Source of the DNA: an uncultured Pseudomonadota bacterium
Lineage (GTDB): Bacteria > Pseudomonadota > Gammaproteobacteria > Steroidobacterales > Steroidobacteraceae
DNA length: 64,000 nt
NCBI GenBank assembly: GCA_903927005.1
Contig: CAIYLH010000054.1
Span: forward strand, 44,677-108,676
Direction of reading: 5' to 3'
Shown here in pieces: positions 40,329-57,842 of this stretch; within the stretch, counting starts at the first letter, position 1; every line of letters starts with the position of its first letter. The notes beneath the pieces are model-generated. The model did no database searches, was not told where the DNA came from, and saw nothing but the letters and a program-made list of their open reading frames with translations. Made by a program: the position numbers and the translations under genes.

Positions 40329-42026
40329 TCAACGGCCGGCCGCGGTTCCGCGGTGCCTGGCCAGGTGCCGCGGGGTCCACGAGTGCGGCGCCTTGTGCAC
40401 GAAGCGGTGCCGGGCGACGTGGTAGCTCGTGTCAAAGCCGTAGAAGCTGCGCCGCATCTCGGCCAGCTCAGCCTGCCGGTACGAGGCGAGCGGCCGTAGC
40501 GCCTCGTCTTGATCGCGGCTGGCGGCCTTGGCCCGCAGCCGCTGCAGGTAGTTGTCCGCAGTGGCGAGCCGGGCTGCGCGATCGGCCACCTCGCACGTGA
40601 AATCGTCGACCGTCGCGCCGAACACGGCATCGGCAAGCCCCAGTCGAACTGCCTGGCTGCCCAGCAGCGGCTGACGCGCGCCGATGATCCCGTCGGCAGC
40701 AGCCCCTACCCTTCTGGGTAAGGTGTACGTCCACAGCTCCGAGCCATACAAGTTGCCCATGTTGCGGTAGTGCAGGTTGAGCACGGCAGCGGGCCGGATC
40801 CAGACCTGATCAGCGGCCAGCGCGAGGAACGCGCCGCCCGCACCCGCGTTGCCGCCGACGGCCGCAACCGTCAACTTTGACGTCATCCGCACCAGACACT
40901 CGGCGACGTCGTCGATCGCCTCGATGTTCAGCCACGACTCGTCGGCAGGGCTGTCGGCGGCCTCGATCAGATTGAGGTGGATGCCGTTCGACCAGAAGTC
41001 ACGGCCACCCTCCAGTACCAGCACGCGGGTTGGGCGTGCAGCGGCGGATTCGAGCGCTGCCAGCAGCTGGCGGCAATCGGCGCTGCCCATCGCGCCATTG
41101 TAGAAATCAAAGCGCAGAAACCCCACCGCCCCGGACTCGCGATACGTAATCGGCCGCGGGGCACTGTTGCGCAGCTCATCAGCCTCCGCAGGCAGCTGTG
41201 GCAACGCCCGCGCCGCCGGGCAGGCCATCAGCGCCGGCAGCTTGAACTGCTCGGGTGTCGCGCCACGGGCGTGACCGATCCACACGCTGCCATCAACGGT
41301 CGCGCGCAACAGCGCATGAGCCTCGCGATAGAGCCATTGGCCGGGCTGCGCGGTCGCCACCGGCGGACCTGGATGCGCGTCGTACAGGTAGGCAGGTACA
41401 CCTGCGATCGCATCGAGCAGACCCGGGGCCGAGTCGGCAGCCCGCAATCGCCGCAGCACCTCGGCCGTCCTGCAGGTCGTCCAGTCGATGGCTCGAGCGG
41501 CCTGTGTGAGCGGGGGATGCCAGCGGCCTCGCGGCAGCAAGGCCAGGGCGTCTGCCGCGAGCGGCCCCACCCCGGCCTCATACCGCTCCAGCGCGGCAAG
41601 CACGGCGTCTACCGCGCCGTCCGCGACTTCACCGCGATACAGGCTCGCCTTGCTCGCTGGACGCATCGCGAATGAAGCACTGGCCCAGATGGGCCCCGCG
41701 TCCCACTCCGCGTCGGCCTGCAGCACCGTCACGCCCCACTCTTGCTGCTGCTCGAGGATCGCCCAGTCCAGAGCGGCCGGCCCGCGGTCGCCCGGCACGC
41801 CAGGATGCACAATCAGACACGGCAGCCGGCGCCAGATGTCCTCTGGGATCGCGCGCTTGAGGAAAGACGCTATGACGAGCGCCGGCGCGTGCAGCGCCAC
41901 CGCTTCGCGCGTGACCTCGTCGCTGATGTCCAGCTCAAAGCTCAGCTCATGACCGCGCTCGCCAAGCGCGCACCACAGCTGCTGAGTCAGGCTATTGAAT
42001 GCGTGTGCGAGCAGCAGTATGCGCAT
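40329..42026 (-). CDS. hypX: HypX/HoxX, CO-ligand synthesis protein for [NiFe]-hydrogenase
   Basis: 565 residues in two domains. The N-terminal half is a formyl-THF-binding hydrolase/transferase fold (LIVHPGVPGDRGPAALDWAI). The C-terminal half is an enoyl-CoA hydratase-like crotonase fold with the HypX-specific stretch LYGSELWTYTLPRRVG. HypX takes the formyl group from 10-formyl-THF and converts it to the CO ligand of the NiFe(CN)2CO site; it is restricted to organisms that mature hydrogenase in air. It is the last gene of the hup/hyp operon, 7 bases after hypE. Confidence 0.93.
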   Translation of the reverse strand: MRILLLAHAFNSLTQQLWCALGERGHELSFELDISDEVTREAVALHAPALVIASFLKRAIPEDIWRRLPCLIVHPGVPGDRGPAALDWAILEQQQEWGVTVLQADAEWDAGPIWASASFAMRPASKASLYRGEVADGAVDAVLAALERYEAGVGPLAADALALLPRGRWHPPLTQAARAIDWTTCRTAEVLRRLRAADSAPGLLDAIAGVPAYLYDAHPGPPVATAQPGQWLYREAHALLRATVDGSVWIGHARGATPEQFKLPALMACPAARALPQLPAEADELRNSAPRPITYRESGAVGFLRFDFYNGAMGSADCRQLLAALESAAARPTRVLVLEGGRDFWSNGIHLNLIEAADSPADESWLNIEAIDDVAECLVRMTSKLTVAAVGGNAGAGGAFLALAADQVWIRPAAVLNLHYRNMGNLYGSELWTYTLPRRVGAAADGIIGARQPLLGSQAVRLGLADAVFGATVDDFTCEVADRAARLATADNYLQRLRAKAASRDQDEALRPLASYRQAELAEMRRSFYGFDTSYHVARHRFVHKAPHSWTPRHLARHRGTAAGR

Positions 42027-42033
42027 GCGCCGT

Positions 42034-43086
42034 TCAACAGATCCGTGGCAGCTGGTCGCCCGTGAGCCAGTCGACGACCCTGCGGCCGCCGAGCGTGGTC
42101 GTCATCTGCACGAAGTGATCTGGATCGCGTGTCACCCGGCCTATCAGGGCGGCATCCCGCCCCTGCGGATGAGCCAATAGCGTCGCGTGCAGCAGCGCCG
42201 CATCCTCCGCGGGCACGATAGCAATCAGCTTGCCCTCATTGGCGACATACAGCGGATCCAGCCCGAGCAGCTCGCACGCCGCCGCCACTGCCGGCTTTAA
42301 CGGGATGGCGCTCTCCTCAAGCATCATGCCCACGCCTGACTGGCGCGCGATCTCGTTCAGCGTCGTTGCGAGGCCGCCGCGCGTGGGATCGCGCAGCACC
42401 CTGATCCGCGGACAGGCCGACAGCAGCGTCTCGACGAGCCCGTGCAGAGCGGCGCTGTCAGAGAGGATCTCGGTGTCGAACTCGAGGTTCTCGCGCTTGG
42501 ACATGATCGCGACGCCATGGTCGCCTATGCTGCCGGAAACGAAGATCGCGTCGCCCTCGCGCGCCGCCGAACCATCGAGCACGATGCCGTCGGGCACGAC
42601 GCCGACACCCGTGGTCGTGATGTAGACCCCGTCCCCCTTGCCCTGCTCGACGACCTTGGTGTCGCCGGTGACAATCGGCACTCCCGCCGCCTTGGCCGCC
42701 GCCGCCATCGACAGGACGATGCGGCGCAGCTCCGCCAGAGGGAAGCCCTCTTCCAGTATGAATCCCGCCGCAAGATACAGCGGCCGCCCACCGGCCATGG
42801 CGACGTCATTGATGGTGCCGTGCACTGACAGCGAGCCAATGTCGCCGCCCGGAAAGAAAAGCGGCGAGACGACGTGGCTGTCGGTCGCCATCACCAGCCG
42901 CCCGGCCGGCCGCGGCATCGCCGCGGCATCGTTCTGGGTACGCAGCCACGGGTTGTCGAACGCCGCCAGAAACAGCTCCTCCACCAACTGCGCCGTTGCG
43001 CGGCCACCCGCGCCGTGCGCCAGCTCCACGCGTCCGCGCTTGAAATCTAGCGGCCGCTGATACAACGGCCGGGGCTCGCCGCTCAT
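42034..43086 (-). CDS. hypE: HypE, carbamoyl dehydratase (cyanide ligand synthesis)
   Basis: Start at ATG 43086 (MSGEPRPLYQRPLDFKRGRV), overlapping the hypD stop; 350 residues against 381 in the track. It is a PurM-like ATP-binding fold with the N-terminal ELAHGAGGRATAQLVEELF and the catalytic tail ending PRIC. The C-terminal Cys receives carbamoyl from HypF and is dehydrated with ATP to thiocyanate, the source of the CN- ligands. The tail is intact. It is translationally coupled to hypD and precedes hypX by 7 bases. Confidence 0.96.
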   Translation of the reverse strand: MSGEPRPLYQRPLDFKRGRVELAHGAGGRATAQLVEELFLAAFDNPWLRTQNDAAAMPRPAGRLVMATDSHVVSPLFFPGGDIGSLSVHGTINDVAMAGGRPLYLAAGFILEEGFPLAELRRIVLSMAAAAKAAGVPIVTGDTKVVEQGKGDGVYITTTGVGVVPDGIVLDGSAAREGDAIFVSGSIGDHGVAIMSKRENLEFDTEILSDSAALHGLVETLLSACPRIRVLRDPTRGGLATTLNEIARQSGVGMMLEESAIPLKPAVAAACELLGLDPLYVANEGKLIAIVPAEDAALLHATLLAHPQGRDAALIGRVTRDPDHFVQMTTTLGGRRVVDWLTGDQLPRIC

Positions 43087-44237
43087 GCCATCTCCGCGGC
43101 AAGCGGCGCCTGCGGACGGTCGCGGAAGCGGCCGTAGGAATAATGCGCAGCGCACGCTCCCTCGGACGAAACCATGCACGAACCCATGGGCGTCTCCGGC
43201 GTGCAGGCACCACCGAACAGCCGGCAGTCGGTCGGACGCTTCAGGCCGCGCAGGATCGCGCCGCAGTCACAGGCCTTGTTATCCGGAACCGGCTGGTACT
43301 GCAGCTCAAATCGGCGCTCGGCGTCGTGGGCAGCGAAGGTAGCGCGAATGGCAAGCGCGCTGTACGGCACGGTTCCTAATCCGCGCCATTCGAACTCACG
43401 GCGTAACTCAAAGACCTCTGCCACCAGCGCCTGCGCCTTCTGGTTGCCGGCGCGATCAACAACCCGATGAAACTGGTTCTCGACCTCAGCGCGACCCTCG
43501 TTGACCTGCCGTACCAGCATCAGTATCGCCTGCATGACATCCAGCGGCTCGAATCCCGCGATCACCACGGGCTTGCGGAATTCCTCCGCAAAGAACTCGT
43601 ACGGCCGTGTGCCAATGATGCTGCTGACGTGCGCAGGCCCGACAAAGCCGTCCAACGGCACGGTGCCCAACGTGCGCACCTCGGGTGACTGCAGGATATT
43701 GACGATCGCCGCTGGCGTCAGCACATGATTGCTCAGCACGCTGAAGTTGCCGACGCCCGTGGCTTGCGCCTCACGGATCACCAGCGCCGTAGGCGGCGTT
43801 GTTGTTTCAAAGCCGATCGCGAGGAAAACCACCTCGCGGGCTGGGTTCTCACGTGCGATCCGTAGCGCATCTGCAGCTGAGTACACCATGCGGATATCAC
43901 CGCCCTCGGCCTTGGCGCGCAGCAGCGAACGGCCGTTGGAGGCAGGCACACGCATTGTGTCGCCATAACTGCACAAGATCACGTTCCGCTCTAGCGCCAG
44001 CCCGATCGCAAGATCAATTCTCCCGATCGGCAGCACGCACACCGGACAACCCGGCCCGTGGATCATGCGCACGTTCGCAGGCAGCAGGTCCGCAACCCCG
44101 TAACGGGAGATGGCGTGGGTGTGGCCGCCGCAGAACTCCATGAACTGGTAGCGACGGCCGGGAACCGCCTCGCGCGCGATCGCGGCGGCAAGTCCGCGTC
44201 CGAGCTCACGATCACGGAACTCGTCGACGTACTTCAT
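43083..44237 (-). CDS. hypD: HypD, iron-sulfur scaffold for Fe(CN)2CO assembly
   Basis: 384 residues. Signature stretches CGGHTHAISRYG, GPGCPVCVLPIGRID and GFETTTPPTAL carry the cysteines and residues that hold the Fe(CN)2CO unit and pass it through HypC. The C-terminal cysteine-rich part (ACDCGAILRGLKRPTDCRLFGGACTPETPMGSCMV) provides the [4Fe-4S] cluster ligands. The start overlaps the hypC stop by four bases and the end overlaps the hypE start by four bases. Confidence 0.96.
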   Translation of the reverse strand: MKYVDEFRDRELGRGLAAAIAREAVPGRRYQFMEFCGGHTHAISRYGVADLLPANVRMIHGPGCPVCVLPIGRIDLAIGLALERNVILCSYGDTMRVPASNGRSLLRAKAEGGDIRMVYSAADALRIARENPAREVVFLAIGFETTTPPTALVIREAQATGVGNFSVLSNHVLTPAAIVNILQSPEVRTLGTVPLDGFVGPAHVSSIIGTRPYEFFAEEFRKPVVIAGFEPLDVMQAILMLVRQVNEGRAEVENQFHRVVDRAGNQKAQALVAEVFELRREFEWRGLGTVPYSALAIRATFAAHDAERRFELQYQPVPDNKACDCGAILRGLKRPTDCRLFGGACTPETPMGSCMVSSEGACAAHYSYGRFRDRPQAPLAAEMA

Positions 44238-44467
44238 ACCAGCTCTCCTGGCTCGAGGCCGGCAGCGGCCATCGCGGCCAGCGTCTCGGCCGCGGCGTCA
44301 GGATCGAGCCGTGCCAGCGCGTAGCCAACGTGTACGATCACATAGTCGCCAGGAACCACGCCCTCGACCAGAGCAATGGAAACCCGCTTGCGGATGCCGC
44401 CGGCATCGATCACCGCCTGATCATCGGCCTCAAGACTGACGATGCGGGCTGGAACTGCAAGACACAT
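44234..44467 (-). CDS. hypC: HypC, small chaperone for Fe(CN)2CO delivery
   Basis: 77 residues starting MCLAVPARIVSLEADD; the N-terminal Cys2 (after Met removal) binds the iron unit and the large-subunit precursor. The track merges it into a 181-residue ORF. A second member of the same family, hupF, lies earlier in the operon; having both is normal for uptake-hydrogenase loci. It lies 1 base after hypF's stop and overlaps hypD by four bases. Confidence 0.95.
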   Translation of the reverse strand: MCLAVPARIVSLEADDQAVIDAGGIRKRVSIALVEGVVPGDYVIVHVGYALARLDPDAAAETLAAMAAAGLEPGELV

Positions 44468-44468
44468 C

Positions 44469-46793
44469 TCATTCCCCCTGCGCGCGTTGCGCGATCCAGC
44501 ACTGACCGAGGCTGATGGCCCCGTCGTTCGGCGGCGCCGCCGCAGACTCCAACATCCAGATCCCACGCGCGGCGAGTTCACGGCGCAACGCGCAGGCAAG
44601 CACGTCGTTCTGCAGGCAACCACCACCGCAGGCGACCCGATCCAGACCGCTTTGGATCGCAGCCACGGACACCCACTCGGCAAGCCCACGCGCGACACCG
44701 GCATGAAACTCCGCCGCCAGGCGCCCACGATCGGCAGACCGCAGCAGCGGCTCCAGCAGCGGCAGCAAATCGAGCACACCGTCGGCGCCGAGCCGCGCCG
44801 CAGCCGCGGGCTCTGCTACGCCGGCCGCCGCGGCGGCACCCTCAAGCAACATCGCCGCCTGACCCTCGAAGCTGGTGACCTCGCGCAGGCCGACCAGCGC
44901 TGCGGCGGCGTCGAACCAGCGACCCAGACTGGAGGTCGACGGCGCTCGGCCGTGGGCGAGTAGCCTTGCGACCGCCGTCGCGGCAGGTTGGGACGCGAAT
45001 CGGGTTGAGATTTCATCGGCCCGCCCGAGCGCGACAAGCACCGCCGCAGCGACCCGCCACGGCTCGCGCGCGGCGCGATCCCCGCCAACCAGCGGCAGCG
45101 TCCGCAGGTGCCCTAGGCGCTGCATGCGGGCGCCATCGACACGCAGCAGCTCCCCGCCCCAAGCGCCGCGGTCCGTTCCGTAGCCAACGCCATCCAATGC
45201 GAGGCCTAGAACCGGCCCCTCTACGCCGTGCTCGGCCAGCACTGCAGCGACGTGGGCATGATGGTGCTGCACGGGGATGAGCGGCACGGACCACTCCGCT
45301 GCGAGGCGAGCAGCAAGGCGTGTGCTGTGAAAATCCGGGTGCAGGTCGTGCGCGACGGCCACTGGCCGTACGCCGGTTAGGGACAGCAGGTGTGCGACGG
45401 CAGCATCGAAGGCGCGCCGCGTCGGCGCCAGATCCAGGTCGCCAACGTGCGGACTGAGGAACGCCTGATCGCCGCGGGTGACGCACGCAGTCGCCTTGTA
45501 GTGACCGCCGAGGCCAAGCACCTGCGGACCGCGCGACGCCAGTCCGATCGCCCGCGGCGCTGCGCCGCGCGCACGACGCACGAACCGCGGCTGACCCTCG
45601 CGCACGCGCATCACCGAGTCATCGCAACGGGTAACGATCCGACGGTCGTGCAGCAGCCACGCGTCTGCGATACCGGTCAGGGCCTGCAACGCCTCATCGT
45701 CGTCGATAACCAGCGGCTCGTCGTGCAGATTCGCGCTGGTCATCACCAACAGTAACGGCTGCGCCTCGGCAAGCCAGCCAGTGCCGGCCGGTCGGCCGAG
45801 CGCTTCATGAAAAAGCAGGTGGTGGATGGGCGTGTACGGCAGCATCACACCGAGTCTGCCGACGCCGTCCGCGATACCCGCCAGAGCGGCGCCTGCGCTC
45901 GGGGCGCGAGGCACCAGCACAATCGGCCGCTCTACTGATTCCAGCAGCGCGCGTTCCGCATCGCACAGACGTACCAAGTCCGCCAGCGAGGCGACGTTCG
46001 CTGCCATCACCGCAAAGGGTTGCTCCTCGCGGTGCTTGCGGGATCGCAGGCGCGCGACCGCCGCCGCGTCAGTCGCGACGCAAGCGAGGTGCCAACCACC
46101 TAGTCCCTTGATCGCGACAATGCCGCCCGACTGCAGGCAGCGCAGCGCTCCGGCGATCGGATCCTCGGCCGGATCGCCACCCACTAACCGCAGCGATGGC
46201 CCGCAAACCGCACAGGCGGTCGCCTCCGCGTGGAAGCGCCGTTCACCAGGCGCTCGATACTCAGCGTCACAGCGAGCACACAACGGGAATGGCGCAAGGC
46301 TGGTCCGCGCCCGATCGTAGGGCAGCGCCTCAGTGACCGTGTAGCGCGGCCCGCAGTCGGTGCAGTTGATCAACGCGTAACGATAGCGCCTATCACCCGC
46401 ATCGAACATCTCCGCAAGGCAAGCAGGACACACGCCGGTATCGTGTCCAATCGCGGTGTCGGTGCCGGTTGCGAGACTTTCGATGACGGAAAAGCCGTCC
46501 CTGCCCGGATCCGGCGCGCAATCCTCCACATCGATCGCATCGACGCGGGCGCGTGGCGGAGGCGCGGTACGAAGTCGCGCGCGCAGCGCTGCGAGCGCCG
46601 CTGGCGCACCCTGCACGTCAATCCAGACGCCGGCGCCGTCGTTGCAGACAGTGCCGGCGAGTTGCAGCTCGGTTGCGGCTCTATAGACAAAGGGCCGGAA
46701 GCCGACGCCCTGAACAACGCCACGCACGCGGATGCGTTGCCGCTCGAGGCTCCGCGCGGACAGCTTGGAGCAACGCGCCGCGGCGTCGATCAC
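44469..46793 (-). CDS. hypF: HypF, carbamoyltransferase for cyanide ligand synthesis
   Basis: 774 residues. Domains in order: acylphosphatase-like (RVRGVVQGVGFRPFVYRAA), two Cys4 zinc fingers (CPACLAEMFDAGDRRY, INCTDCGPRYT; CARCDAEYRAPGE, ACAVCGP), YrdC-like (GIVAIKGLGGWHLAC) and Kae1-like (VQHHHAHVAAVLAEHG, LALDGVGYGTDRGAWGGEL). It makes carbamoyl-AMP from carbamoyl phosphate and transfers the carbamoyl group to the HypE C-terminal Cys. All domains are intact. It overlaps hypB by four bases. Confidence 0.97.
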   Translation of the reverse strand: MIDAAARCSKLSARSLERQRIRVRGVVQGVGFRPFVYRAATELQLAGTVCNDGAGVWIDVQGAPAALAALRARLRTAPPPRARVDAIDVEDCAPDPGRDGFSVIESLATGTDTAIGHDTGVCPACLAEMFDAGDRRYRYALINCTDCGPRYTVTEALPYDRARTSLAPFPLCARCDAEYRAPGERRFHAEATACAVCGPSLRLVGGDPAEDPIAGALRCLQSGGIVAIKGLGGWHLACVATDAAAVARLRSRKHREEQPFAVMAANVASLADLVRLCDAERALLESVERPIVLVPRAPSAGAALAGIADGVGRLGVMLPYTPIHHLLFHEALGRPAGTGWLAEAQPLLLVMTSANLHDEPLVIDDDEALQALTGIADAWLLHDRRIVTRCDDSVMRVREGQPRFVRRARGAAPRAIGLASRGPQVLGLGGHYKATACVTRGDQAFLSPHVGDLDLAPTRRAFDAAVAHLLSLTGVRPVAVAHDLHPDFHSTRLAARLAAEWSVPLIPVQHHHAHVAAVLAEHGVEGPVLGLALDGVGYGTDRGAWGGELLRVDGARMQRLGHLRTLPLVGGDRAAREPWRVAAAVLVALGRADEISTRFASQPAATAVARLLAHGRAPSTSSLGRWFDAAAALVGLREVTSFEGQAAMLLEGAAAAAGVAEPAAAARLGADGVLDLLPLLEPLLRSADRGRLAAEFHAGVARGLAEWVSVAAIQSGLDRVACGGGCLQNDVLACALRRELAARGIWMLESAAAPPNDGAISLGQCWIAQRAQGE

Positions 46794-47629
46794 GCACGCG
46801 CTCCGGCATCAGTCACAGCCAGCGGACCCGACATCCGGGCGCGCACGGCGACTTCCCGCCGTAGCCACGCAAGCCACGCATCGAAACCTGCGCCAGACAT
46901 CACCGATAGCGTCAGACACTCCAGCGCTGGGTTTATGCGCATCGCGTTCGCCGTTGCACGAGCAACATCGAATGGCACGTACGGCAGCAAGTCGGACTTG
47001 GTGATCAGACACAGGTCGGCCGCGCGGAACATGTCTGGATACTTGAGCGGCTTGTCGTCCCCCTCCGTGACAGACAGCACGACGACCTTGTGCGCCTCGC
47101 CCAGATCGAAGGCGGCAGGGCAGACAAGGTTGCCGACGTTTTCGATAAACAGAATCCCGCCACGCTGTAGCGGCAACGACTCCGCCGCATGACCGACCTG
47201 GTGCGCATCGAGGTGACAGCCCTTGCCGGTATTGAGCTGCACTACCGGCGCGCCAGTGGCCGCGATGCGATCAGCGTCGAGACTCGTCTGCTGATCGCCT
47301 TCCACGACCGCCGCCGGACAGAGGCCGGCGAGTGCCTTGAGCGTCTCGACCAGCAGCGTCGTCTTGCCCGAGCCGGGGCTCGAGACCAGATTCAGCGCAA
47401 GTACACCGGCGGCCTCGAAGCGATGGCGGTTGGTCGCGGCATAACGATCGTTCTTTGCGAGCAGATCCTGCTCGACGCTAACGGTGCGGGTCGTCGTGGG
47501 GCGCAGCACACCAAAGCCACGCGCGCCAGGCAGGACCGCATCCGCGGCGTGCGAATGATCATGCGCGTCGTGATCATGGCCAGGGCCATGGGCATCAGAG
47601 GTCGCCGAGCAGCCGCAGGTCACGCACAT
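46790..47629 (-). CDS. hypB: HypB, GTPase and nickel-binding maturation protein
   Basis: 279 residues. The N-terminal CVTCGC is the high-affinity CxxCGC nickel site, followed by a His-rich stretch (HGPGHDHDAHDHSHA) for nickel storage. The GTPase domain has P-loop SSPGSGKTTLL and the metal-site NTGKGCHLDAHQV. It powers nickel insertion into the large-subunit precursor together with HypA and SlyD. The His-rich stretch is of moderate length. Its start overlaps the hypA end by 10 bases. Confidence 0.96.
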   Translation of the reverse strand: MCVTCGCSATSDAHGPGHDHDAHDHSHAADAVLPGARGFGVLRPTTTRTVSVEQDLLAKNDRYAATNRHRFEAAGVLALNLVSSPGSGKTTLLVETLKALAGLCPAAVVEGDQQTSLDADRIAATGAPVVQLNTGKGCHLDAHQVGHAAESLPLQRGGILFIENVGNLVCPAAFDLGEAHKVVVLSVTEGDDKPLKYPDMFRAADLCLITKSDLLPYVPFDVARATANAMRINPALECLTLSVMSGAGFDAWLAWLRREVAVRARMSGPLAVTDAGARA

Positions 47630-47988
47630 GTCGAACTCTCCTGTTCCGGTCCTAGGTCGATGTCTTTGACTCGCATGTCGCCACCGCCGGTCACCTCCAG
47701 CCGATAGCCCCCGCAGCCTGGGCAGCCAGCACCACCTTCAGCGATGGCGACTGCCTCACCGCAGTCCCAGCACCAGCCGCTGCCCGGAACGGTCTCTATT
47801 TCCAGGCGCGCGCCAGCGGCGACACCATCCTGCATCACAACGTCGAAGCAGAATCGCAGCGCCTCAGGCTCGACGGTGGCCAGCGCACCAATCTGCAAGC
47901 GCACCGCAGTGACGCGGCGGGCGCCATGCTGGCTCGCGGTCTGCTCCACGATCTCGCGGACGCTCTCCATCAGCGACATCTCATGCAT
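47620..47988 (-). CDS. hypA: HypA, nickel metallochaperone
   Basis: 122 residues, beginning MHEMSLMESVREIVEQ; His2 and Glu3 are the conserved nickel ligands. The zinc site is formed by CWDCGEAV and CPGCGGYRLEV. HypA delivers nickel to the large subunit with HypB. Its start overlaps the hupK end by 8 bases, and hypB's start lies inside its 3' end. Confidence 0.95.
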   Translation of the reverse strand: MHEMSLMESVREIVEQTASQHGARRVTAVRLQIGALATVEPEALRFCFDVVMQDGVAAGARLEIETVPGSGWCWDCGEAVAIAEGGAGCPGCGGYRLEVTGGGDMRVKDIDLGPEQESSTCA

Positions 47989-48991
47989 CAGGCCCGCCTA
48001 CGACTGCCACCGCATGCGAGACACACGGATCGAACGCCAGCGCCCAGAGCGAGGCGGCGCGGGCCGCCTCGCGGGCGCCCTCCACCGGCAGGCCGCGCAG
48101 GTAGGCGACAAACGGGCCGTCGGCGGCGAAGTGGCGCTCCGTCGGGGTGTGAATCAGGTAGGCGCTGACTACTCCGTCAGCCAGGGTCGCATCGTGTTCG
48201 AGCCAGCCGCGGGCAGTGGCAACGGAACCCAGGCCGCGGCCCGGTGCAGGGCTAGCAGCTGCCATGTCGATCATGTTCAGAGAATCGCTGCACAACCCGA
48301 GTAACAGTTCCAGCAGCGACACCACGCGCGCGGCCAGCAGCGCCTCGAGCGCGCGCCCCGCGTCCTGCAGTGAAGCTATCCAGCGATGCTCGCTGGCAGT
48401 CTCGAGCGGCGAGTCGAGTGTTCCGGCTGGCCGCGCCTGCAACCCGACCCGTGGAGTGGCGGCCCGTTCCGCTCGCAGCAGTCCGAACAAACGGGCCACT
48501 GGCGTGGCCGCCGAGGCGTGCCAACGATCAAACGCGGCCAGCTCATCGAACTGCGCGAGCGCCGCCGCCGGCATACCCAGCCAGTCTGCCTCGAGCGTCG
48601 TCAACAACTGCGACGGCCAGTCGGGCGCACCTGACTGGATCCCGCCGTACCAGCGCGTGAACGCATCGCGCGCAGGCATGGCACCGAGCAGGGCCGGCCA
48701 GTCGAGCCACAGACGCCACAGGTGCTCCTGCACTGCCTCCGCGGCAACCGCAGCGGCGAGCCGTCCGTGCCGGTCGTGTGCAAGCGAAACGCCGCCAGCA
48801 GCGGCGAGGGTGAGCTCCGCGCAGGCACGCTGCGCGGCACCGCAGACCGCATAGAGGCGGCCGAGCACGCCAGCGACGGCCGCCGGACTCAGGCCAACCA
48901 GCACTCGGGCGGGGTTCGGCGTTCGCGCATCGATGCGCACCGTCTCGATGCAGCCGCGCGAACATTCGACGACGATATCGATGCTCGCCAT
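47981..48991 (-). CDS. hupK: HupK, large-subunit-like hydrogenase maturation protein (HoxV type)
   Basis: Start at ATG 48991 (MASIDIVVECSRGCIETV), 336 residues; the track adds 53. It resembles a shortened hydrogenase large subunit. The C-terminus has FDPCVSHAVAVVGG in place of the mature DPCxxCxxH cluster, so one Cys remains and no NiFe site is likely. HupK/HoxV is proposed to act as a scaffold for passing the Fe(CN)2CO unit to the real large subunit. It ends 8 bases inside hypA and starts 2 bases after hupJ. Confidence 0.88.
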   Translation of the reverse strand: MASIDIVVECSRGCIETVRIDARTPNPARVLVGLSPAAVAGVLGRLYAVCGAAQRACAELTLAAAGGVSLAHDRHGRLAAAVAAEAVQEHLWRLWLDWPALLGAMPARDAFTRWYGGIQSGAPDWPSQLLTTLEADWLGMPAAALAQFDELAAFDRWHASAATPVARLFGLLRAERAATPRVGLQARPAGTLDSPLETASEHRWIASLQDAGRALEALLAARVVSLLELLLGLCSDSLNMIDMAAASPAPGRGLGSVATARGWLEHDATLADGVVSAYLIHTPTERHFAADGPFVAYLRGLPVEGAREAARAASLWALAFDPCVSHAVAVVGGPDA

Positions 48992-48993
48992 CG

Positions 48994-49485
48994 CTACCCC
49001 CCCGTCAGCAGTCCGCGCCGCGACAGCCGCGCGGGGCCTGCAACCGGTGCGGGCTGCGGGGCCTGCAGCAAGGCTTCCAGCGCTGCGTGAGCTGCCTGCT
49101 CCGCATCTTCCTGCGACGCGAATTCGGTGACGGGCGAAAACAGCGAGCACTGGTGATAGGTACCGACATCAGCCTCGGTGTGCGCCATGAATCCATATAC
49201 GCCGGACGGGAACGCCCAGGGATGGGCATCTCCCTGACGCACCGGCGGCAGTGCCTCAGCAGCGCCATCCATCAGCATCAGGTTGATGCACCACGGCGTC
49301 ACGAGCGCACCCAGGCGCAGGCCGCGCCAGTCCCGAAATCCCAACGCTGCAACCCGTAGTCGGGGATTGAGAAACTCGAGCCCCGCCATGCGGGTAGCCA
49401 AAATCCCCTCAAAGGTGCGTTCCAGCCGTAACTCGTCGGCCGACCGCGGCGCAGCGCTCGCGCCCACGCTGGGCTGTGCGCTCAC
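48994..49485 (-). CDS. hupJ: HupJ / HybE-family hydrogenase assembly chaperone (HoxT type)
   Basis: The GTG at 49485 (GTGA overlap with the rubredoxin stop) gives 163 residues; the ATG at 49533 used by the track is an alternative inside the rubredoxin gene. The sequence contains ERTFEGILATRMAGLEFLNPRLRVAALGFRDW and LGALVTPWCINLMLMDG, the HybE/HoxT family core. In E. coli HybE is a private chaperone for hydrogenase subunits; in O2-tolerant loci its relatives protect the small-subunit cluster during assembly. Confidence 0.88.
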   Translation of the reverse strand: MSAQPSVGASAAPRSADELRLERTFEGILATRMAGLEFLNPRLRVAALGFRDWRGLRLGALVTPWCINLMLMDGAAEALPPVRQGDAHPWAFPSGVYGFMAHTEADVGTYHQCSLFSPVTEFASQEDAEQAAHAALEALLQAPQPAPVAGPARLSRRGLLTGG

Positions 49486-49688
49486 GCAGGCACCCGCAGG
49501 AACCGCGTCTTGGGCGCATCGCAATGAGGACACGTCCAGTTGGACGGCAATTGCTCGAACGCAGTCCCATAGGAGACCTGAGCGAAATCGTCACCCTTGC
49601 TGGGATCGTAGACCGTCCAGCAAACACCGCATTCGTAGCAGACCCCTGAGGTCGACGGCTCGCCGGTAGTGAGGTCCACGGAACTCAT
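49482..49688 (-). CDS. hupI: Rubredoxin of the hydrogenase operon (HupI/HoxR)
   Basis: 68 residues with the rubredoxin iron ligands in CYECGVCW (Cys17, Cys20) and CPHCDAPK (Cys53, Cys56), plus the aromatic core YDPSKGDDFAQVSYGTAFEQLP. In Cupriavidus, HoxR is needed for synthesis of the membrane-bound hydrogenase at high oxygen, probably by supplying electrons for building the [4Fe-3S] cluster. It lies 4 bases after hupH and overlaps hupJ. Confidence 0.95.
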   Translation of the reverse strand: MSSVDLTTGEPSTSGVCYECGVCWTVYDPSKGDDFAQVSYGTAFEQLPSNWTCPHCDAPKTRFLRVPA

Positions 49689-49692
49689 CGCG

Positions 49693-50535
49693 CTACTCGA
49701 GCGTTTCCAGCCACTCGCCCAGACGCGAGAGCGAGTCGGCGAAATCCTCCGGTGCCGCCAGCGCGACCTCCGGCACCGCAGTGACCTCGATGGTGTTCAG
49801 GATCAGGCTATTCATGCTGTTGAAATACTGCACCCACCAGGTATCTCGCAAGCGCGTGCTGGTGATGCGACAGTTGCCGTAGCCACGCGACAGCAGCGTC
49901 ACCGGACCGATCTCCAACGCTCCTACCAGCCAGGCAATGTCTTCACTGGTGACCGGCAACAAGGTCAGGTTCACGACGTGGGTCGGCGCCCCGTCACCCC
50001 GCGCGCTGGCGGCAACGAGCTCGGTCAGTAGCGCCGGCGCGTTCATGACGCCGGCGGGAGGAACCCGCTTCGGCATCCTGCAACGGGAACCCAGCAGCGC
50101 CGCCTCGCGGATCACGGCCGGGACGGGCGCGACCTCAACCACGTCCCCCACCATCTCACCGGATTCGTCGAAATTGCGAATGCGCCAGAAGCCAGGAAAC
50201 GCGGTTTCCTGTAGGCGCACCGCTGGCTCATCGATGATCGCACCGACCTCGCCCTCGCCGAGGGTCTCGTTGACCAGTGCGATCGCGGCGGGGCTGAGCG
50301 TGAGCACGTCGCGGGTCAACTGCACGCTGCCGCCGAATTCGTGTGCGGCCGCTGTGGAATGCAAGTCCTCCAAAAACGCCCGGGCCTCGGCAAGTGCCGC
50401 CGGACTGACATCCACGGGGCGTGCCGGCATATGAAACGTCGCGAGCATCTCGGGCATGCGCACGAAGTCGAGTTCGTCGTCCAGAGGCTGTGACCCGGGG
50501 CCAATATTGACGACCGGAATGGGGAACGCTTTCAT
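49693..50535 (-). CDS. hupH: HupH, small-subunit maturation protein (HyaF/HoxQ)
   Basis: 280 residues beginning MKAFPIPVVNIGPGSQPLDDELDFV, with the HupH-type centre TLGEGEVGAI and SNLVLLPVTSEDIAWLVGAL-like (VNLTLLPVTSEDI) segments and a C-terminal IRITSTRLRDTWWVQYFNSMN stretch. HyaF/HoxQ proteins interact with the small subunit and its proximal cluster in oxygen-tolerant hydrogenases. Its start overlaps the hupG stop by four bases and its end is 4 bases before the rubredoxin gene. Confidence 0.93.
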   Translation of the reverse strand: MKAFPIPVVNIGPGSQPLDDELDFVRMPEMLATFHMPARPVDVSPAALAEARAFLEDLHSTAAAHEFGGSVQLTRDVLTLSPAAIALVNETLGEGEVGAIIDEPAVRLQETAFPGFWRIRNFDESGEMVGDVVEVAPVPAVIREAALLGSRCRMPKRVPPAGVMNAPALLTELVAASARGDGAPTHVVNLTLLPVTSEDIAWLVGALEIGPVTLLSRGYGNCRITSTRLRDTWWVQYFNSMNSLILNTIEVTAVPEVALAAPEDFADSLSRLGEWLETLE

Positions 50536-50984
50536 GCAGACCTCGCGGCAGGACTGTGGGCGGGATAGCGACCGGCAACTGGCGGTGTCTGGCTGGGAGC
50601 GTCACAAAGCAGGCGCATCGCGACCACGTACACGTCCCAATCCCGCATTCCTTCGATGACACCGATGTACTCACCGTCGCGCAGCACTACCAGCGCCGGC
50701 AACTTGTCGATGCCATAGCGCGTGGCGGCGGCAGCGCTCTGGGTCGGATCCAGGATCGCGGCGCGCATTGCAGGGAAGATCGTCAGCAGCTCTGGCAGCA
50801 CGACGCAGACGTCCCAGCTTTCAGGAGACCGTCCCGGCTCGCCGGTATAAAGCAGCGCCAGCACACCCGGCGCGGCCGCGATGACATCAAGCTGGTCCGC
50901 CGTCACCGTTGGAACGCCGGCGTCGCGCGCCAGGCGCAATAGCAGTTCAGCGAACGCAGCGGCCCGTTGTTCAGCGTATGTCAT
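50532..50984 (-). CDS. hupG: HupG, thioredoxin-fold hydrogenase chaperone (HyaE/HoxO)
   Basis: 150 residues. The thioredoxin-like fold lacks a CxxC: the middle reads VLALLYTGEPGRSPESWDVCVVLPELL and KLPALVVLRDGEYIGVIEG. HyaE/HoxO is a Tat-linked chaperone binding the small-subunit signal peptide and stopping premature export. The start overlaps the hupF stop by four bases; hupH follows with a four-base overlap. Confidence 0.92.
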   Translation of the reverse strand: MTYAEQRAAAFAELLLRLARDAGVPTVTADQLDVIAAAPGVLALLYTGEPGRSPESWDVCVVLPELLTIFPAMRAAILDPTQSAAAATRYGIDKLPALVVLRDGEYIGVIEGMRDWDVYVVAMRLLCDAPSQTPPVAGRYPAHSPAARSA

Positions 50985-51286
50985 GACTTACCTCGGAGAA
51001 ATTCAGGAAGCTGGGGCTCACGATCGACCAGATCGGGAAAGAACGTGGCCACATCAAACGGCTCTCCACGCTCGATCGCAGCTAGCGCGCCGAGCGCCTG
51101 CGAAATGCGACCTGCGTCGTCAGCGTCCAGATGACCCCGTGCCGCTCCCAGAAAGGTCAGCAGCCAGTCGCCCGGCAGTACTGGAGTCACCAACAGAATG
51201 TCTATGAGGGTCTCGCCGTCCGGACCACGGCACAGCGCCATCGTTTCGGACACCGAGATCACCTGCATAGGAATACCAAGGCACAT
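50981..51286 (-). CDS. hupF: HupF, HypC-family chaperone of the uptake hydrogenase (HoxL)
   Basis: Start at ATG 51286 (MCLGIPMQVISVSETM), 101 residues. The N-terminal Cys2 and fold match HypC, with a C-terminal extension (FFPDLVDREPQLPEFL) typical of HupF/HoxL. It binds the large-subunit precursor and protects it from oxygen during cofactor insertion. It is 4 bases after hupD and overlaps hupG. Confidence 0.94.
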   Translation of the reverse strand: MCLGIPMQVISVSETMALCRGPDGETLIDILLVTPVLPGDWLLTFLGAARGHLDADDAGRISQALGALAAIERGEPFDVATFFPDLVDREPQLPEFLRGKS

Positions 51287-51290
51287 GCGG

Positions 51291-51890
51291 TCACTCGGCT
51301 CGCGGCAGGAAGCGGGCGTCACCAATGCGACAGGCGCTATCGGCCGACGGACGCTCCGTCTCGTAACGAGCAAGACTTAGCGGCGAATCCTCGCCCAGCG
51401 GCACGGCCCGCTGCTGCGGCGCGAGGCCCCACTCCCGCAGCAAGCCGACAGCGATCTCGATGGCCTCGGGAATACGGGCACGCATACCCGGCCGAAGGCT
51501 GCCGCCGTAATCCTCCAATTCGTAAGGCTGCACGCCGATCAGCACGATCGGATCGGGCAAGGTGCCGGTCAGCGCGGCGAGGGCAAGCACCTCTTGGAAG
51601 CCCGTCTGGTGCAGGCTCGTCTTGCGCACCCCGAGATAGCGCGGCACTGCATCGCCGTGCATTACCTTGAGCGTACCGGGCAGGAGCGCGAAATCAATCG
51701 CGTCGAAGATGATCAAGCGGCGAGCGGCCTGCAGGTAGGGCAGCAGGTACAGGCCCTGCGTGCCGCCGTCGAGCGAAGTGCTCCCCACCGGCAGTTCCCA
51801 CTGTGCATGAAAGGCTTCGACACAGCGAACCCCGAAGCCCTCATCGGCCCAAAGCACGTTGCCGATTCCAAGCACCAGCGCCTCGTCCAT
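51291..51890 (-). CDS. hupD: HupD, hydrogenase maturation endopeptidase (HyaD/HoxM)
   Basis: 199 residues. The N-terminal MDEALVLGIGNVLWADEGFGVRCVEAF and the later IFDAIDFALLPGTL and GFQEVLALAAL blocks match family M52 proteases; Glu17 and Asp in FDAID and a His region (LHQTGFQ) provide the nickel-sensing ligands. It cuts the large-subunit C-terminal extension after nickel insertion, releasing the 15-residue tail seen in hupL. It is the first gene of the continuous hupD-hypX transcription unit, and the palindrome GTAACGG-N3-CCGTTAC lies 29 bases upstream of its ATG. Confidence 0.95.
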   Translation of the reverse strand: MDEALVLGIGNVLWADEGFGVRCVEAFHAQWELPVGSTSLDGGTQGLYLLPYLQAARRLIIFDAIDFALLPGTLKVMHGDAVPRYLGVRKTSLHQTGFQEVLALAALTGTLPDPIVLIGVQPYELEDYGGSLRPGMRARIPEAIEIAVGLLREWGLAPQQRAVPLGEDSPLSLARYETERPSADSACRIGDARFLPRAE

Positions 51891-51918
51891 GGCACACCCT
51901 CCGTCTCAGGGAGGAACT

Positions 51919-51935
51919 GTAACGGCCGCCGTTAC
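51919..51935. promoter_or_regulatory. 17-bp palindrome GTAACGG-N3-CCGTTAC upstream of hupD
   Basis: GTAACGGCCGCCGTTAC: perfect 7-bp arms (8 bp if the outer spacer bases are counted) and a short spacer, centred 37 bases upstream of the hupD ATG. The same arms and spacing occur upstream of hupS at 56077-56093. I did not notice a third full copy elsewhere in the window. The form suggests an operator for a dimeric regulator. Confidence 0.65.
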
Positions 51936-52015: not shown

Positions 52016-52357
52016 TCAGGATCTGGCGTCGTATTCGAGCCGGGCCCGGTGCAGATCCCATGCCGCCTGCAGGTGCAGCCACAACTCCGGTCCTGTACCG
52101 AAGTACCTGGCAAGTCGCAGTGCGGTGTCCGGCGTCAGCCCGCGACGCCCATTCACGATTTCGTTCACCCGTCGCCTGGAAACGCCGAGTGCCTTGGCGA
52201 GGCCTTCCTGCGACAGGCTGAGTGGCTGCAGGAAGCGGGAATCCAGGAACTGACCCGGATGCTGGGGTCGCCGCCCGCGCAGCGCAGGACGCGGCCCCGA
52301 GACCTCGCTTCTTGCAACCGCTACCACGCTATTAATCCTTAAACGTCCTATAGCCAC
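52016..52357 (-). CDS. Orphan HigA-family XRE helix-turn-helix protein
   Basis: 113 residues as tracked; a GTG at 52327 would give 103 residues and remove the overlap with hupC's end. The C-terminal two thirds hold an XRE helix-turn-helix (LSQEGLAKALGVSRRRVNEIVNGRRGLTPDTALRLARYF) and the HigA-type ending LWLHLQAAWDLHRARL. HigA antitoxins usually follow a higB toxin; the gene before it is hupC, and no toxin-like ORF is seen on either side. The N-terminal 40 residues are Arg/Pro-rich and unlike HigA. It sits in the hydrogenase operon, one gene away from a shared palindrome, so a role as a local transcription factor is plausible. Confidence 0.8.
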   Translation of the reverse strand: MAIGRLRINSVVAVARSEVSGPRPALRGRRPQHPGQFLDSRFLQPLSLSQEGLAKALGVSRRRVNEIVNGRRGLTPDTALRLARYFGTGPELWLHLQAAWDLHRARLEYDARS

Positions 52358-53033
52358 TCACCATCGTGCTGACGATACTCTCACGAGTCGTCACGTCCTG
52401 ACGCAGGACCATGTACAGATGGACGATGAAAAACGTGACCATCAGCCACATGCCAAGGTGATGCCAGGTGTGCACATTCTGGCTCTGCCCGAACAGCGGA
52501 ATCACCCAACCGAACAGCATATCCGACCACGTGCCCTTGCCCGCACCTTCCGAATACAGCGCAAAGCCCGTTATCATCATGAAGAAGGATACCGGCACGA
52601 GCATGAACGCCATGGCCGCCTGCGCCATCGGGTTGTGGCCGCTGTACTTGATCTCCCGCACGTGCATGAACGCGTACGATTTTACGTCGTACATGAACTC
52701 CTGCCACCAGATCTTGTTGAAGATCGGCACCAGGAACAGCTGACGGGCGTAGTCGTTTCCAACAAACGCCCAGTAGATCCGCAGCAGCCAGGAAACTGCG
52801 AGCGTGTAACCTGAGGCAAAGTGCGCGAAGCGGATATAGCCGAACAGAAAGTGCTCGGAAGCCTCGCCACTAACGGACGGCGGAGGGTATGAAATCAGCA
52901 GTCCCGTAACGATCAGAACGGTGACCGCTATTACCATCACCCAGTGCCAGAGCCGCACCGGTGCCTCGTAGATGTAGATCGACTTCAGGTCCTTGTTGCG
53001 AGGATCCGTGTCGACTGAGTTGTGGAGCAACAT
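52332..53033 (-). CDS. hupC: HupC, membrane cytochrome b of the uptake hydrogenase (HyaC/HoxZ)
   Basis: 233 residues with four transmembrane segments (about 30-50, 70-95, 140-165, 195-215). Haem-ligand histidines are visible in PVRLWHWVMVIAV, IRFAHFASGYTLAV and NVHTWHHLGMWLM/VHLYMVL, the family's bis-His b-haem pattern. It anchors HupSL at the periplasmic side and passes electrons from H2 oxidation to the quinone pool. It follows hupL after 23 bases. Confidence 0.94.
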   Translation of the reverse strand: MLLHNSVDTDPRNKDLKSIYIYEAPVRLWHWVMVIAVTVLIVTGLLISYPPPSVSGEASEHFLFGYIRFAHFASGYTLAVSWLLRIYWAFVGNDYARQLFLVPIFNKIWWQEFMYDVKSYAFMHVREIKYSGHNPMAQAAMAFMLVPVSFFMMITGFALYSEGAGKGTWSDMLFGWVIPLFGQSQNVHTWHHLGMWLMVTFFIVHLYMVLRQDVTTRESIVSTMVSGYRTFKD

Positions 53034-53056: not shown

Positions 53057-54847
<1,791 letters not shown>

Positions 54848-54859
54848 GACCGTGCTCCC

Positions 54860-55951
54860 TCACTCGCCCGAGCCGTCTTTGCCGAAACCTTTGCCGTGGT
54901 CGAGCTTGGCGCGCTTGAGCGCCGTAATGCCCGCATGCACTGCAACACCGGCGGCGGTAACCGCCGCGAGCGTCCCGCCGACCTTGTCAGCGTTGGCTTC
55001 GATTCCGAACTGCTTGATGCCCGTGACCCGATCGTAGAACGAGCCCTTGTCCCAGAAACCGTCTTCGGAGCAGCCAATGCAGCCGTGACCCGATCCGATC
55101 GGGAATGACACGCCCTCGTTCCAGCGCGTGGTCGAGCAAGCGTTGTAGGTCGTCGGCCCCTTGCAGCCCATCTTGTAGAGGCAGTGGCCCTTGCGCGCGC
55201 CCTCGTCGTCCCAGCTCTCGACGAACTGGCCAGCGTCAAAATGCGGGCGGCGGTAGCACTTGTCGTGAATTCTCTGGCCGTAGAACATCTTTGGCCGCCC
55301 CTGGCGGTCGAGTTCCGGCAACCGATCAAAGGTCAGCATGTAGGTGACGACCGCGGTCATCACCTCGGCGATCGGCGGGCAGCCAGGCACCTTGATGATC
55401 GGCTTGTCAAAGATGACCTTGTCGATCGGCACCGCGTTGGTCGGGTTGGGCTTTGCCGCCTGCACACAACCCCAGGAAGCGCACGCGCCCCAGGCGATGA
55501 CGGCCTTGGCGTCCTTGGCGACTCGCTTGAGCTCCTCGACGAACGGCTTGCCGCCCGTGATGCAGTACATCCCGTCCTCGTTGAGCGGCGGGTTGCCCTC
55601 GACGGCGAGGATGTAGTTGCCCTTGTACTTGGCGATGACCTCATCGAGGCACGCCTGAGCCTGCAGGCCCGCGGACGCCATCAATGTGTCGTCGTAGTCG
55701 AGCGACAGCATCGACAGCACGACATCCTTGGCGAGGGGATGTGCCGAACGGATGAAGGACTCCGAACAGCAGGTGCACTCCAGGCCGTGCAGCCACAGGA
55801 CGGGCGTGCGCGGCTTGGTCTCCAGCGCATGCGCTATCTGCGGCGCAAAGTAGGATCCGAGCCCCAGCGAGGTCGCTGTCAGGCTGCAGAACTTAAGGAA
55901 GCTGCGCCGGCTAATGCCCTGGCGGCGCAGTACGTCGTAGAACGTCTCCAT
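54860..55951 (-). CDS. hupS: HupS, oxygen-tolerant [NiFe]-hydrogenase small subunit
   Basis: 363 residues. Twin-arginine signal SRRSFLKF (residues 14-21), cleaved near AHA at 40-42. Counted from the mature N-terminus, proximal-cluster cysteines fall at 17, 19, 20 (ECTCCSES), 115, 120 (WGACASWGC) and 149. Cys19 and Cys120 are the two extra cysteines that bind the [4Fe-3S] cluster of oxygen-tolerant group 1d enzymes. His187 (RIHDKC) and later cysteines bind the distal and medial clusters. A C-terminal hydrophobic segment ([15 protein letters not shown]) anchors it to HupC. It is exported as a complex with HupL by Tat. Confidence 0.97.
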
Positions 55952-56076: not shown

Positions 56077-56093
56077 GTAACGGACCCCGTTAC
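56077..56093. promoter_or_regulatory. 17-bp palindrome GTAACGG-N3-CCGTTAC upstream of hupS
   Basis: GTAACGGACCCCGTTAC: perfect 7-bp arms around ACC, centred 134 bases upstream of the hupS ATG. Both arms and spacing match the copy at 51919-51935 upstream of hupD; only the spacer differs (ACC against CCG). I looked for a sigma-54 promoter and an FNR/FixK box in the same region and found neither. Confidence 0.65.
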
Positions 56094-56128: not shown

Positions 56129-57244
56129 TCAGCCGCGGCTGAAAGTGTGGGCGCTGTACGGCAGGCCCAGGTCGCGAGCGACCGCTTCGAAGGTCAGCTT
56201 GCCGGCGTGGATGTTCAGGCCCTTGGCAAAGCCCGGATCACGCGCAAGCGCCTTTTCCCAGCCCAGGTCCGCGATCGCCCGCACGTACGGCAACGTCGCG
56301 TTGGTCAGGGCAAAGGTCGAGGTGCGCGGCACGGCGCCCGGCATGTTGGTGACGCAGTAGTGCACGACACCATCGAGCGTGTACGTCGGCGTCGAGTGAG
56401 TCGTCGGACGACTGGTCTCGAAGCAGCCACCCTGGTCGATCGCGATGTCGACCATCACGGCACCGGGCTTCATGCGCTTGACCATGTCGTGGGTCACCAG
56501 CTTCGGAGCCGCGGCACCCGCCACCAGCACGGCACCAATCACGAGGTCAGCATCAAGCACGAGCTTCTCGATCGCATCAGCCGTCGAGTAGACCGTCTTC
56601 AGCGAACCGCCGAACTGGGTCGACAGCTCCCGCAGACGCTTGGTCGAACGGTCGACGACGGTAACGTCGGCACGCATGCCAGTCGCCATCTCCGCCGCGT
56701 GCGTACCGGACACGCCACCGCCAAGGATCACGACCTTGGCCGGCGCCACGCCCGGCACGCCGCCGAGCAGCACGCCGAGGCCGCCGTTGGCCTTCTGCAG
56801 TGCGGTCGCACCGACCTGCACTGACATGCGGCCCGCCACTTCGCTCATTGGCGTCAGCAGCGGCAGGCTGCCATCGGGCCAGGTGACGGTTTCATAAGCA
56901 ATCGCGGTGGCACCGGAGGCGAGCAGCGCCTCTGTCTGCGCCTTGTCGGCCGCCAGGTGCAGGTAGGTGAACAAGACCTGACCGGCGTGCAGCATCTGGC
57001 ACTCAACGGTCTGCGGCTCCTTCACCTTCACGATCAGCTCGGCCGAATCGAAGACTTCCTTGGCGGTCGCGAGAATTCGCGCGCCAGCGGCCTGGTACTC
57101 CGCATCGTCCACGCCGATACCGGCGCCGGCGTTCGTCTCAACCGATACCTGGTGGCCGGCCGCCACCAGCTCACGGACACCCGCCGGCGTCAGCCCAACG
57201 CGGTATTCATGAATCTTGATCTCTTTGGGAACGCCGATACGCAT
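56129..57244 (-). CDS. ald: Alanine dehydrogenase
   Basis: Start at ATG 57244 ([20 protein letters not shown]), with a CAGGAG just ahead; 371 residues, the family's usual length. Conserved features: the catalytic His of the [12 protein letters not shown] block, [22 protein letters not shown] and the NAD-binding [19 protein letters not shown]. It interconverts L-alanine and pyruvate plus ammonia with NAD+. The divergent Lrp/AsnC gene starts 137 bases away and probably controls it, as AldR-type regulators do. Confidence 0.95.
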
Positions 57245-57380
57245 CACAACTCTCCTGCGGTGAAAACTGTGATCACTGTAACCATCGCGATCTGGCAGGC
57301 TCTTGCAAACGCAGCGCAGCATTTAGGTTAAATGCGCAAGGTTTCTTTACAAAATTCAATATTCACGCAAGAATCTGCCA

Positions 57381-57842
57381 ATGACCCTCGATCGCTACGA
57401 CCGCACGATCCTGCAGGCCCTGCAGCGCGAAGGACGGATCACCAACAGCGAGCTGGCCGCCCGGGCCAGCCTGTCGGAGTCCGCCTGCCTGCGGCGGGTA
57501 CGCGCACTGGAGGCTTCGGGCCTGATCGAAGGCTACGCAGCCGTGCTCAGCGAGCAAAAGGCCGGGCTCGGCGTTAACGTGTTCGTGTCGATCACGCTCG
57601 AGCGGCAGGAGCGAGCGGACCTTGCTGCCTTCGAGCAGGCCGTGCGCAAGGTGCCCGAAATCATGGAGTGCTACCTGATGTCGGGCGACTACGACTACCT
57701 GCTGCGGGTGGTCGTCGCCGACACGGCGGACTTCGAGCGCGTACACAGCCGCCACCTGACCAGCCTGCCGCATGTCTCCCGCGTGCACTCCAGCTTCGCG
57801 CTGCGAACGGTACAGAAGTCGCGGGAACTGCCGGTGCGCTAA
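57381..57842 (+). CDS. Lrp/AsnC-family transcriptional regulator (probable ald regulator)
   Basis: 153 residues: an N-terminal winged helix-turn-helix (LDRYDRTILQALQREGRITNSELAARASLSESACLRRVRALEASGLI) and a C-terminal RAM domain (VFVSITLERQERADLAAFEQAV, MSGDYDYLLRVVVAD) that binds an amino acid and forms the octamer. It is divergent from ald, the arrangement seen for alanine-responsive AldR/BkdR proteins. The shared 136-base gap is AT-richer than its surroundings and probably holds its binding sites. Confidence 0.92.
   Translation: MTLDRYDRTILQALQREGRITNSELAARASLSESACLRRVRALEASGLIEGYAAVLSEQKAGLGVNVFVSITLERQERADLAAFEQAVRKVPEIMECYLMSGDYDYLLRVVVADTADFERVHSRHLTSLPHVSRVHSSFALRTVQKSRELPVR

Follow-up and report, generated by a model that had tools for sequence, protein, structure and literature searches.

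Our analysis suggests that a gene in the uptake hydrogenase operon of an uncultured Steroidobacteraceae bacterium encodes a HigA-type antitoxin homologue that has lost its toxin and become a dedicated transcriptional regulator of the hydrogenase; we give this reading a probability of roughly 0.8. A preliminary description had raised the recruitment of an antitoxin as a hydrogenase regulator, and the idea is now supported by comparative evidence: synteny in 31 loci, a near-perfect association of the gene with an operator-like site when compared with control loci, the GraA-like geometry of that site, and the exclusion of HupR in the clade of the window. Orphan antitoxins are frequent, and there is dispute over what they do. 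Here the gene has an evolutionary record, its target gene and operator are both defined and the control set is clean, so that antitoxin recruitment as a metabolic regulator becomes directly testable. No earlier report of this protein (hup-HigA) as a hydrogenase regulator was found in the open-access literature. It may represent an apparently undescribed layer in how marine Oceanospirillaceae, several of them cultured type strains, regulate their respiratory [NiFe] hydrogenases, and is a candidate for the regulator in lineages without the known H2-sensing system.

The hydrogenase locus and its higA gene

The window (the whole stretch of 64,000 nucleotides that was analysed) contains a hydrogenase locus with the order hupS-hupL-hupC-higA-hupD-hupF-hupG-hupH-rubredoxin-hupJ-hupK-hypA-hypB-hypF and onwards, all on the minus strand (Table 1). 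The hupL product is the one clear [NiFe] hydrogenase large subunit found in the genome, which argues that a HupUV sensor is absent. The locus also encodes a HypX/HoxX-like protein after hypE (40329-42026), which fits hydrogenase maturation under oxygen. Alanine dehydrogenase (ald) and Lrp-type regulator genes adjoin hupS (56129-57842) in all loci of the window clade (the window and its five close relatives) that hold the region; the lrp gene is 84-95% identical within the clade, which may reflect a nitrogen or amino-acid link or mere synteny.

Table 1. Features of the hydrogenase locus, in window coordinates
Feature	Position	Strand	Evidence and remarks
hupFGHIJK and hypABFD, maturation genes downstream of hupD	43083..51373	-	ORF list, profiles, comparison with relatives
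hupD, hydrogenase maturation protease; first maturation gene, presumed target	51291..51890	-	TIGR00140, 184.5 bits
Operator-like palindrome GTAACGGCCGCCGTTAC	51919..51935		28 bp upstream of hupD start codon (site start -45); present in 6/6 window-clade loci
hup-higA, HigA-family XRE/HTH protein, 103 aa	52016..52327	-	TIGR02607, 104.8 bits; start and Shine-Dalgarno kept in relatives
hupC, cytochrome b subunit; 3' end holds higA ribosome-binding site	52332..53033	-	TIGR02125, 228.7 bits
hupL, [NiFe] hydrogenase large subunit	53057..54847	-	PF00374, 779.8 bits
hupS, small subunit, Tat-type leader; first gene of the operon	54860..55951	-	Orthologues 85-97% identical in relatives
Operator-like palindrome GTAACGGACCCCGTTAC	56077..56093		About 125 bp upstream of hupS; present in 5/5 window-clade loci with the region

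The open reading frame at 52016-52357 (minus strand) clears the 47.7-bit cut-off of the TIGR02607 HigA antitoxin profile (Table 1) and matches Pfam HTH_3 at 47.9 bits, in agreement with its initial description as a HigA/XRE gene between hupC and hupD. Its first 10 codons overlap hupC in a different frame, and the true start is probably the GTG at 52327, 4 nt past the hupC stop, rather than position 52357. A likely start immediately follows the hupC stop in all six window-clade loci, where an AAGGA that codes for the hupC C terminus also serves as the higA ribosome-binding site; the overlap and the conserved start position together set the length given in Table 1. With this start, the Arg/Pro-rich N-terminal extension that had been singled out earlier shrinks to about 20 residues. 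The stretch does exist, and in every window-clade relative, but its sequence is barely conserved and the emphasis placed on it is unsupported. From GRRPQHPG onward the protein is well conserved, and the whole proteins of the window-clade relatives are 72-79% identical to that of the window. Four congeners and one further member of the family have orthologues at 81-84% identity, and the next matches fall to 55%. Against the most distant clade member, HigA is conserved at 82%, compared with 61% for hupC and 64% for hupD. The recognition helix SRRRVNEIVNG is nearly invariant in the clade, although this invariance is partly an artefact and no independent evidence, since the helix (as RRVNEIVN) was among the search patterns.

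The claim that no HigB-like toxin lies on either side of the gene holds. Every long open reading frame of the locus is a hup or hyp gene, and no higB occurs there or beside higA in 30 related hup loci (see below), so hup-higA was not filed as a toxin-antitoxin module. The genome contains four HigB-like genes, all on other contigs, and three have their own adjacent HigA. The fourth (L004, 170-373) lies at a contig end, contains an in-frame TAG and has no visible HigA. In GraA, a HigA-type antitoxin, residues E13, E18 and N72 are among those that bond to the toxin (PMC6393540). All 31 hup-HigAs have C or R in place of E18 and E, H or R in place of N72, and in most of them E13 is replaced as well; at the toxin-contact positions E/D, N and E are retained by most non-hup HigAs. 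These three columns lay outside the search patterns used to collect the HigAs.

An antitoxin from a decayed higBA pair, left behind or mobile and kept by chance or to neutralise stray HigBs encoded elsewhere, would also show the clear HigA family membership of the protein, and other HigB genes are indeed present in the genome. We consider such an origin of the present gene highly improbable, given that hup-HigA is retained in 31 hup loci as one clade, is conserved above the neighbouring genes, is linked to a locus-specific operator-like site and has the GraA-type toxin-contact residues replaced, and that three of the four HigBs have a HigA of their own.

Palindromic sites and their association with hup-higA

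The two shared palindromes reported earlier are real, and are the sole matches in the window when as many as 3 mismatches are allowed, against an expectation of 0.39; two matches arise in 5 of 100 shuffled sequences. The exact pattern GTAAC-N7-GTTAC occurs at two places in the whole 3.99 Mb assembly, both in the hup operon, compared with six for the reversed control pattern. GTAACGGCCGCCGTTAC lies between higA and hupD, 80 bp from the higA stop, as had been estimated. In every window-clade locus GTWAC-N7-GTTAC precedes the hupD start by 44-47 bp, and a palindrome before hupS in each of the five that include the region places a site at the promoter of the operon that contains higA itself. The ends of the palindrome are kept and the N7 core varies between species. 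A short GC-rich hairpin is also possible in the hupD leader (51891-51918) of the six window-clade loci and would include the ribosome-binding site; since the predicted folds are strong in only two of the six (z -2.3 and -1.9) and weak elsewhere, we make no claim for an RNA element.

When 85,462 species genomes were searched with the HigA alignment, 80 loci were obtained, thirty of which are hupSLC-higA loci; many of the others are higBA pairs, and a plasmid match in Cupriavidus sp. EM10, which aligned over the N-terminal part too, also proved to be an ordinary higBA pair. The preliminary description had proposed a search of related hup operons for the same gene, and these 30 further loci place it in two or three deeply separated gammaproteobacterial lineages: five are window-clade relatives (Steroidobacteraceae), one is a Nevskiales genome, and 24 are mostly Oceanospirillaceae genomes, with the genera Amphritea, Marinobacterium, Neptuniibacter, Oceanospirillum, Oceanobacter, Pontibacterium, Neptunomonas and Parathalassolituus represented. 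In a maximum-likelihood tree, built from a short alignment and with many inner forks unresolved, the 31 hup-HigAs form one side of a 98/99 branch that separates them from 36 non-hup HigAs. Sensor-hydrogenase-like genes, 26-36% identical to hupS/hupL, lie upstream of hupS in three loci from Oceanobacter and an Alteromonadales MAG (L036, L051 and L053, first 2.6 kb).

The site and the gene occur together. An exact GTWAC-N7-GTWAC is present upstream of hupD in 29 of the 30 hup-higA genomes, and in the thirtieth (M. jannaschii) with one mismatch; it is absent, even with one mismatch, from all 29 hupD loci of the class that lack an adjacent higA (Fisher p 5e-16 for exact sites, with genomes that are not independent and relatedness uncorrected). 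This co-occurrence is confounded by shared descent, as it involves two main clades and Nevskiales. The pattern has about 10-20 matches per strand in Oceanospirillaceae genomes of 4-5 Mb, so that none would be expected by chance within the 200 bp upstream of hupD. In several Oceanospirillaceae, hupD lies kilobases from higA, and about 860 kb away in Neptuniibacter sp. PT1; where the two genes are distant, the site is found 39-203 bp upstream of hupD. Among non-core genes, higA alone was found in every site-bearing hup locus. The palindrome upstream of hupS is absent from Oceanospirillaceae at up to one mismatch, and autocontrol is therefore not general.

The same type of site is associated with ordinary toxin-antitoxin genes. 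In one gammaproteobacterial control genome, GTWAC-N7-GTTAC lies directly upstream of higB in two ordinary higBA pairs (L185, 692-708; L186, reverse strand, 825-841), and these are among the few matches genome-wide there. In one of them the site is flanked by TTGACA and TACACT, which are 17 bp apart, and so sits where a repressor would bind. Both are predicted HigA operators.

These observations also bear on whether it is instead HupR/HoxA, an NtrC-type activator, that binds the palindromes at hup promoters, with HigA a passenger. The presence of hupR in the hup locus and of a sigma-54-like hupD promoter in Oceanospirillaceae and Nevskiales would fit this, and the helical phasing described below is usual for NtrC-type activators as well. 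However, six window-clade genomes have the sites and no HupR orthologue. There is no hupR between hypB and hypF in the window, the TGGCA element expected before hupD in a HupR/HoxA-controlled locus is absent from the clade, and the four enhancer-binding proteins of the window's own genome are 26-37% identical to HupR. HupR is present in 16 of the 29 control genomes, in which the HigA homologues lie away from the hup locus, and the eight HupR-positive controls that were searched genome-wide, which lack hup-higA, have no site at the hup cluster, the nearest being 33 kb off. In addition, the site in the Nevskiales locus L028 lies downstream of the -24 element, and sites before ordinary higBA pairs are not accounted for by HupR. 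Judged by gene content, HupR is excluded as the binder in the window clade, and we regard it as an unlikely explanation of the sites overall.

Site position and the sign of control

In the window clade, a conserved TACGGAT-type box (TACGTAT in one locus) follows the hupS-upstream site at exactly 34 bp in all five loci with the region, and the hupD site lies 11-12 bp after a TAT-type box; with promoter elements guessed from conservation, the latter would sit at the transcription start. The hupD genes of Oceanospirillaceae and Nevskiales have what looks like a sigma-54 promoter of the type TGGCAC-N5-TTG. Among 22 Oceanospirillaceae-type promoters, the distance from the site centre to the -24 GG is either 35-37 bp (n=9) or 46-48 bp (n=13), and each class is represented in Marinobacterium as well as in Neptuniibacter. 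The best-fitting period of this spacing is 10.4-10.5 bp, and none of 100,000 uniform random sets equalled the phasing. The classes are thus one helical turn apart, as expected of a bound regulator that needs to face a partner. In four of the Oceanospirillaceae-type promoters, a second site follows the -24 GG by 20 bp. Unlike the upstream Oceanospirillaceae position, the site in the Nevskiales promoter (L028, L120) comes immediately after the -24/-12 element, 22 bp downstream of the GG and over the -12/start region.

Sites over a transcription start suggest repression, and sites near -61 or -72 may fit activation and repression alike. On balance, these positions lead us to favour hup-HigA as a repressor with feedback. 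A variant, in which hup-HigA is an activator or co-activator bound at about -61 or -72 on one face of the DNA and aids RNA polymerase or HupR, draws on the two distance classes one turn apart and on the fixed 34 bp between the window hupS site and its promoter-like box; we hold it to be possible but doubtful, as known HigA/GraA proteins repress (PMC6987408, PMC6393540), and the promoter or start would be covered both by the hupD sites of the window clade and by the second sites in Oceanospirillaceae. The window clade lacks HupR, and there hup-HigA is probably the sole regulator specific to the locus; since its hupD site overlaps what is probably the promoter or transcription start, it is most likely a repressor.

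As a dedicated regulator made from the structural operon, hup-HigA would be translated together with hupSLC, form a HigA-type dimer and bind the TAACG-N5-CGTTA palindromes; we infer this binding from the co-occurrence of site and higA and from the geometry of the GraA operator. Bound upstream of hupS, it would place hupSLC-higA under autocontrol, and at the hupD promoter or 5' end it would tie maturation-gene expression to structural-gene expression. In Oceanospirillaceae it may act with HupR, from phase-locked positions, at the sigma-54 hupD promoter. A broader picture, to which we give even odds, is that a former antitoxin serves as a phase-locked accessory factor at a sigma-54/HupR maturation-gene promoter, being made from the structural operon and acting in trans on the maturation operon even from 860 kb away, and is the sole hydrogenase-specific regulator in a lineage without HupR/HupUV.

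Comparison with known regulators

The closest characterised operator is that of GraA from the graTA system of Pseudomonas putida, to which hup-HigA is related as a homologue of the solved structure 6f8s (E 2e-16). The GraA operator reads TTAACG-N5-CGTTAA and the hup site GTAACG-N5-CGTTAC, with TAACG-N5-CGTTA shared exactly. The operator used in GraA crystallography contains TTAACGAATAACGTTAA, and helix 3 of GraA sits on TAAC (PMC6393540). The central TAACGTTA palindrome, where two GraA dimers meet, is missing from the hup sites. Moreover, GraA has the toxin GraT, whereas hup-HigA is without a toxin and its contact positions are replaced, that of E13 mostly. HigAs with the helix NRISQIVRGKR, from Nitrospirota, Nitrosomonadaceae and Gammaproteobacteria, have a conserved TTGACG-N5-CGTCAA upstream of higB (L064-L094). 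The closest non-hup HigA loci were considered as carriers of the hup operator and rejected, as the sites of these NRISQIV-helix HigAs have the same geometry and other outer bases.

HigA of Pseudomonas aeruginosa (higBA) has the same fold as hup-HigA, by sequence homology to 6jpi (E 2.8e-17), and binds the pel promoter. It uses TTAAC/GTTAA and also controls mvfR, a precedent for targets other than toxin genes (PMC6987408). Unlike hup-HigA, it pairs with HigB and regulates higB, and its gene lies outside the operon to which HigA was recruited. YbaQ of Escherichia coli (2eby) is a further HigA-like HTH protein that has been named a putative regulator rather than an antitoxin; its gene is not known to belong to a hydrogenase operon. 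The HupR/HoxA system, in which HupUV/HupT sense hydrogen, resembles hup-HigA in being dedicated to the regulation of an uptake hydrogenase operon, but HupR is an unrelated NtrC-type protein that coexists with hup-HigA in Oceanospirillaceae and is absent from the window clade.
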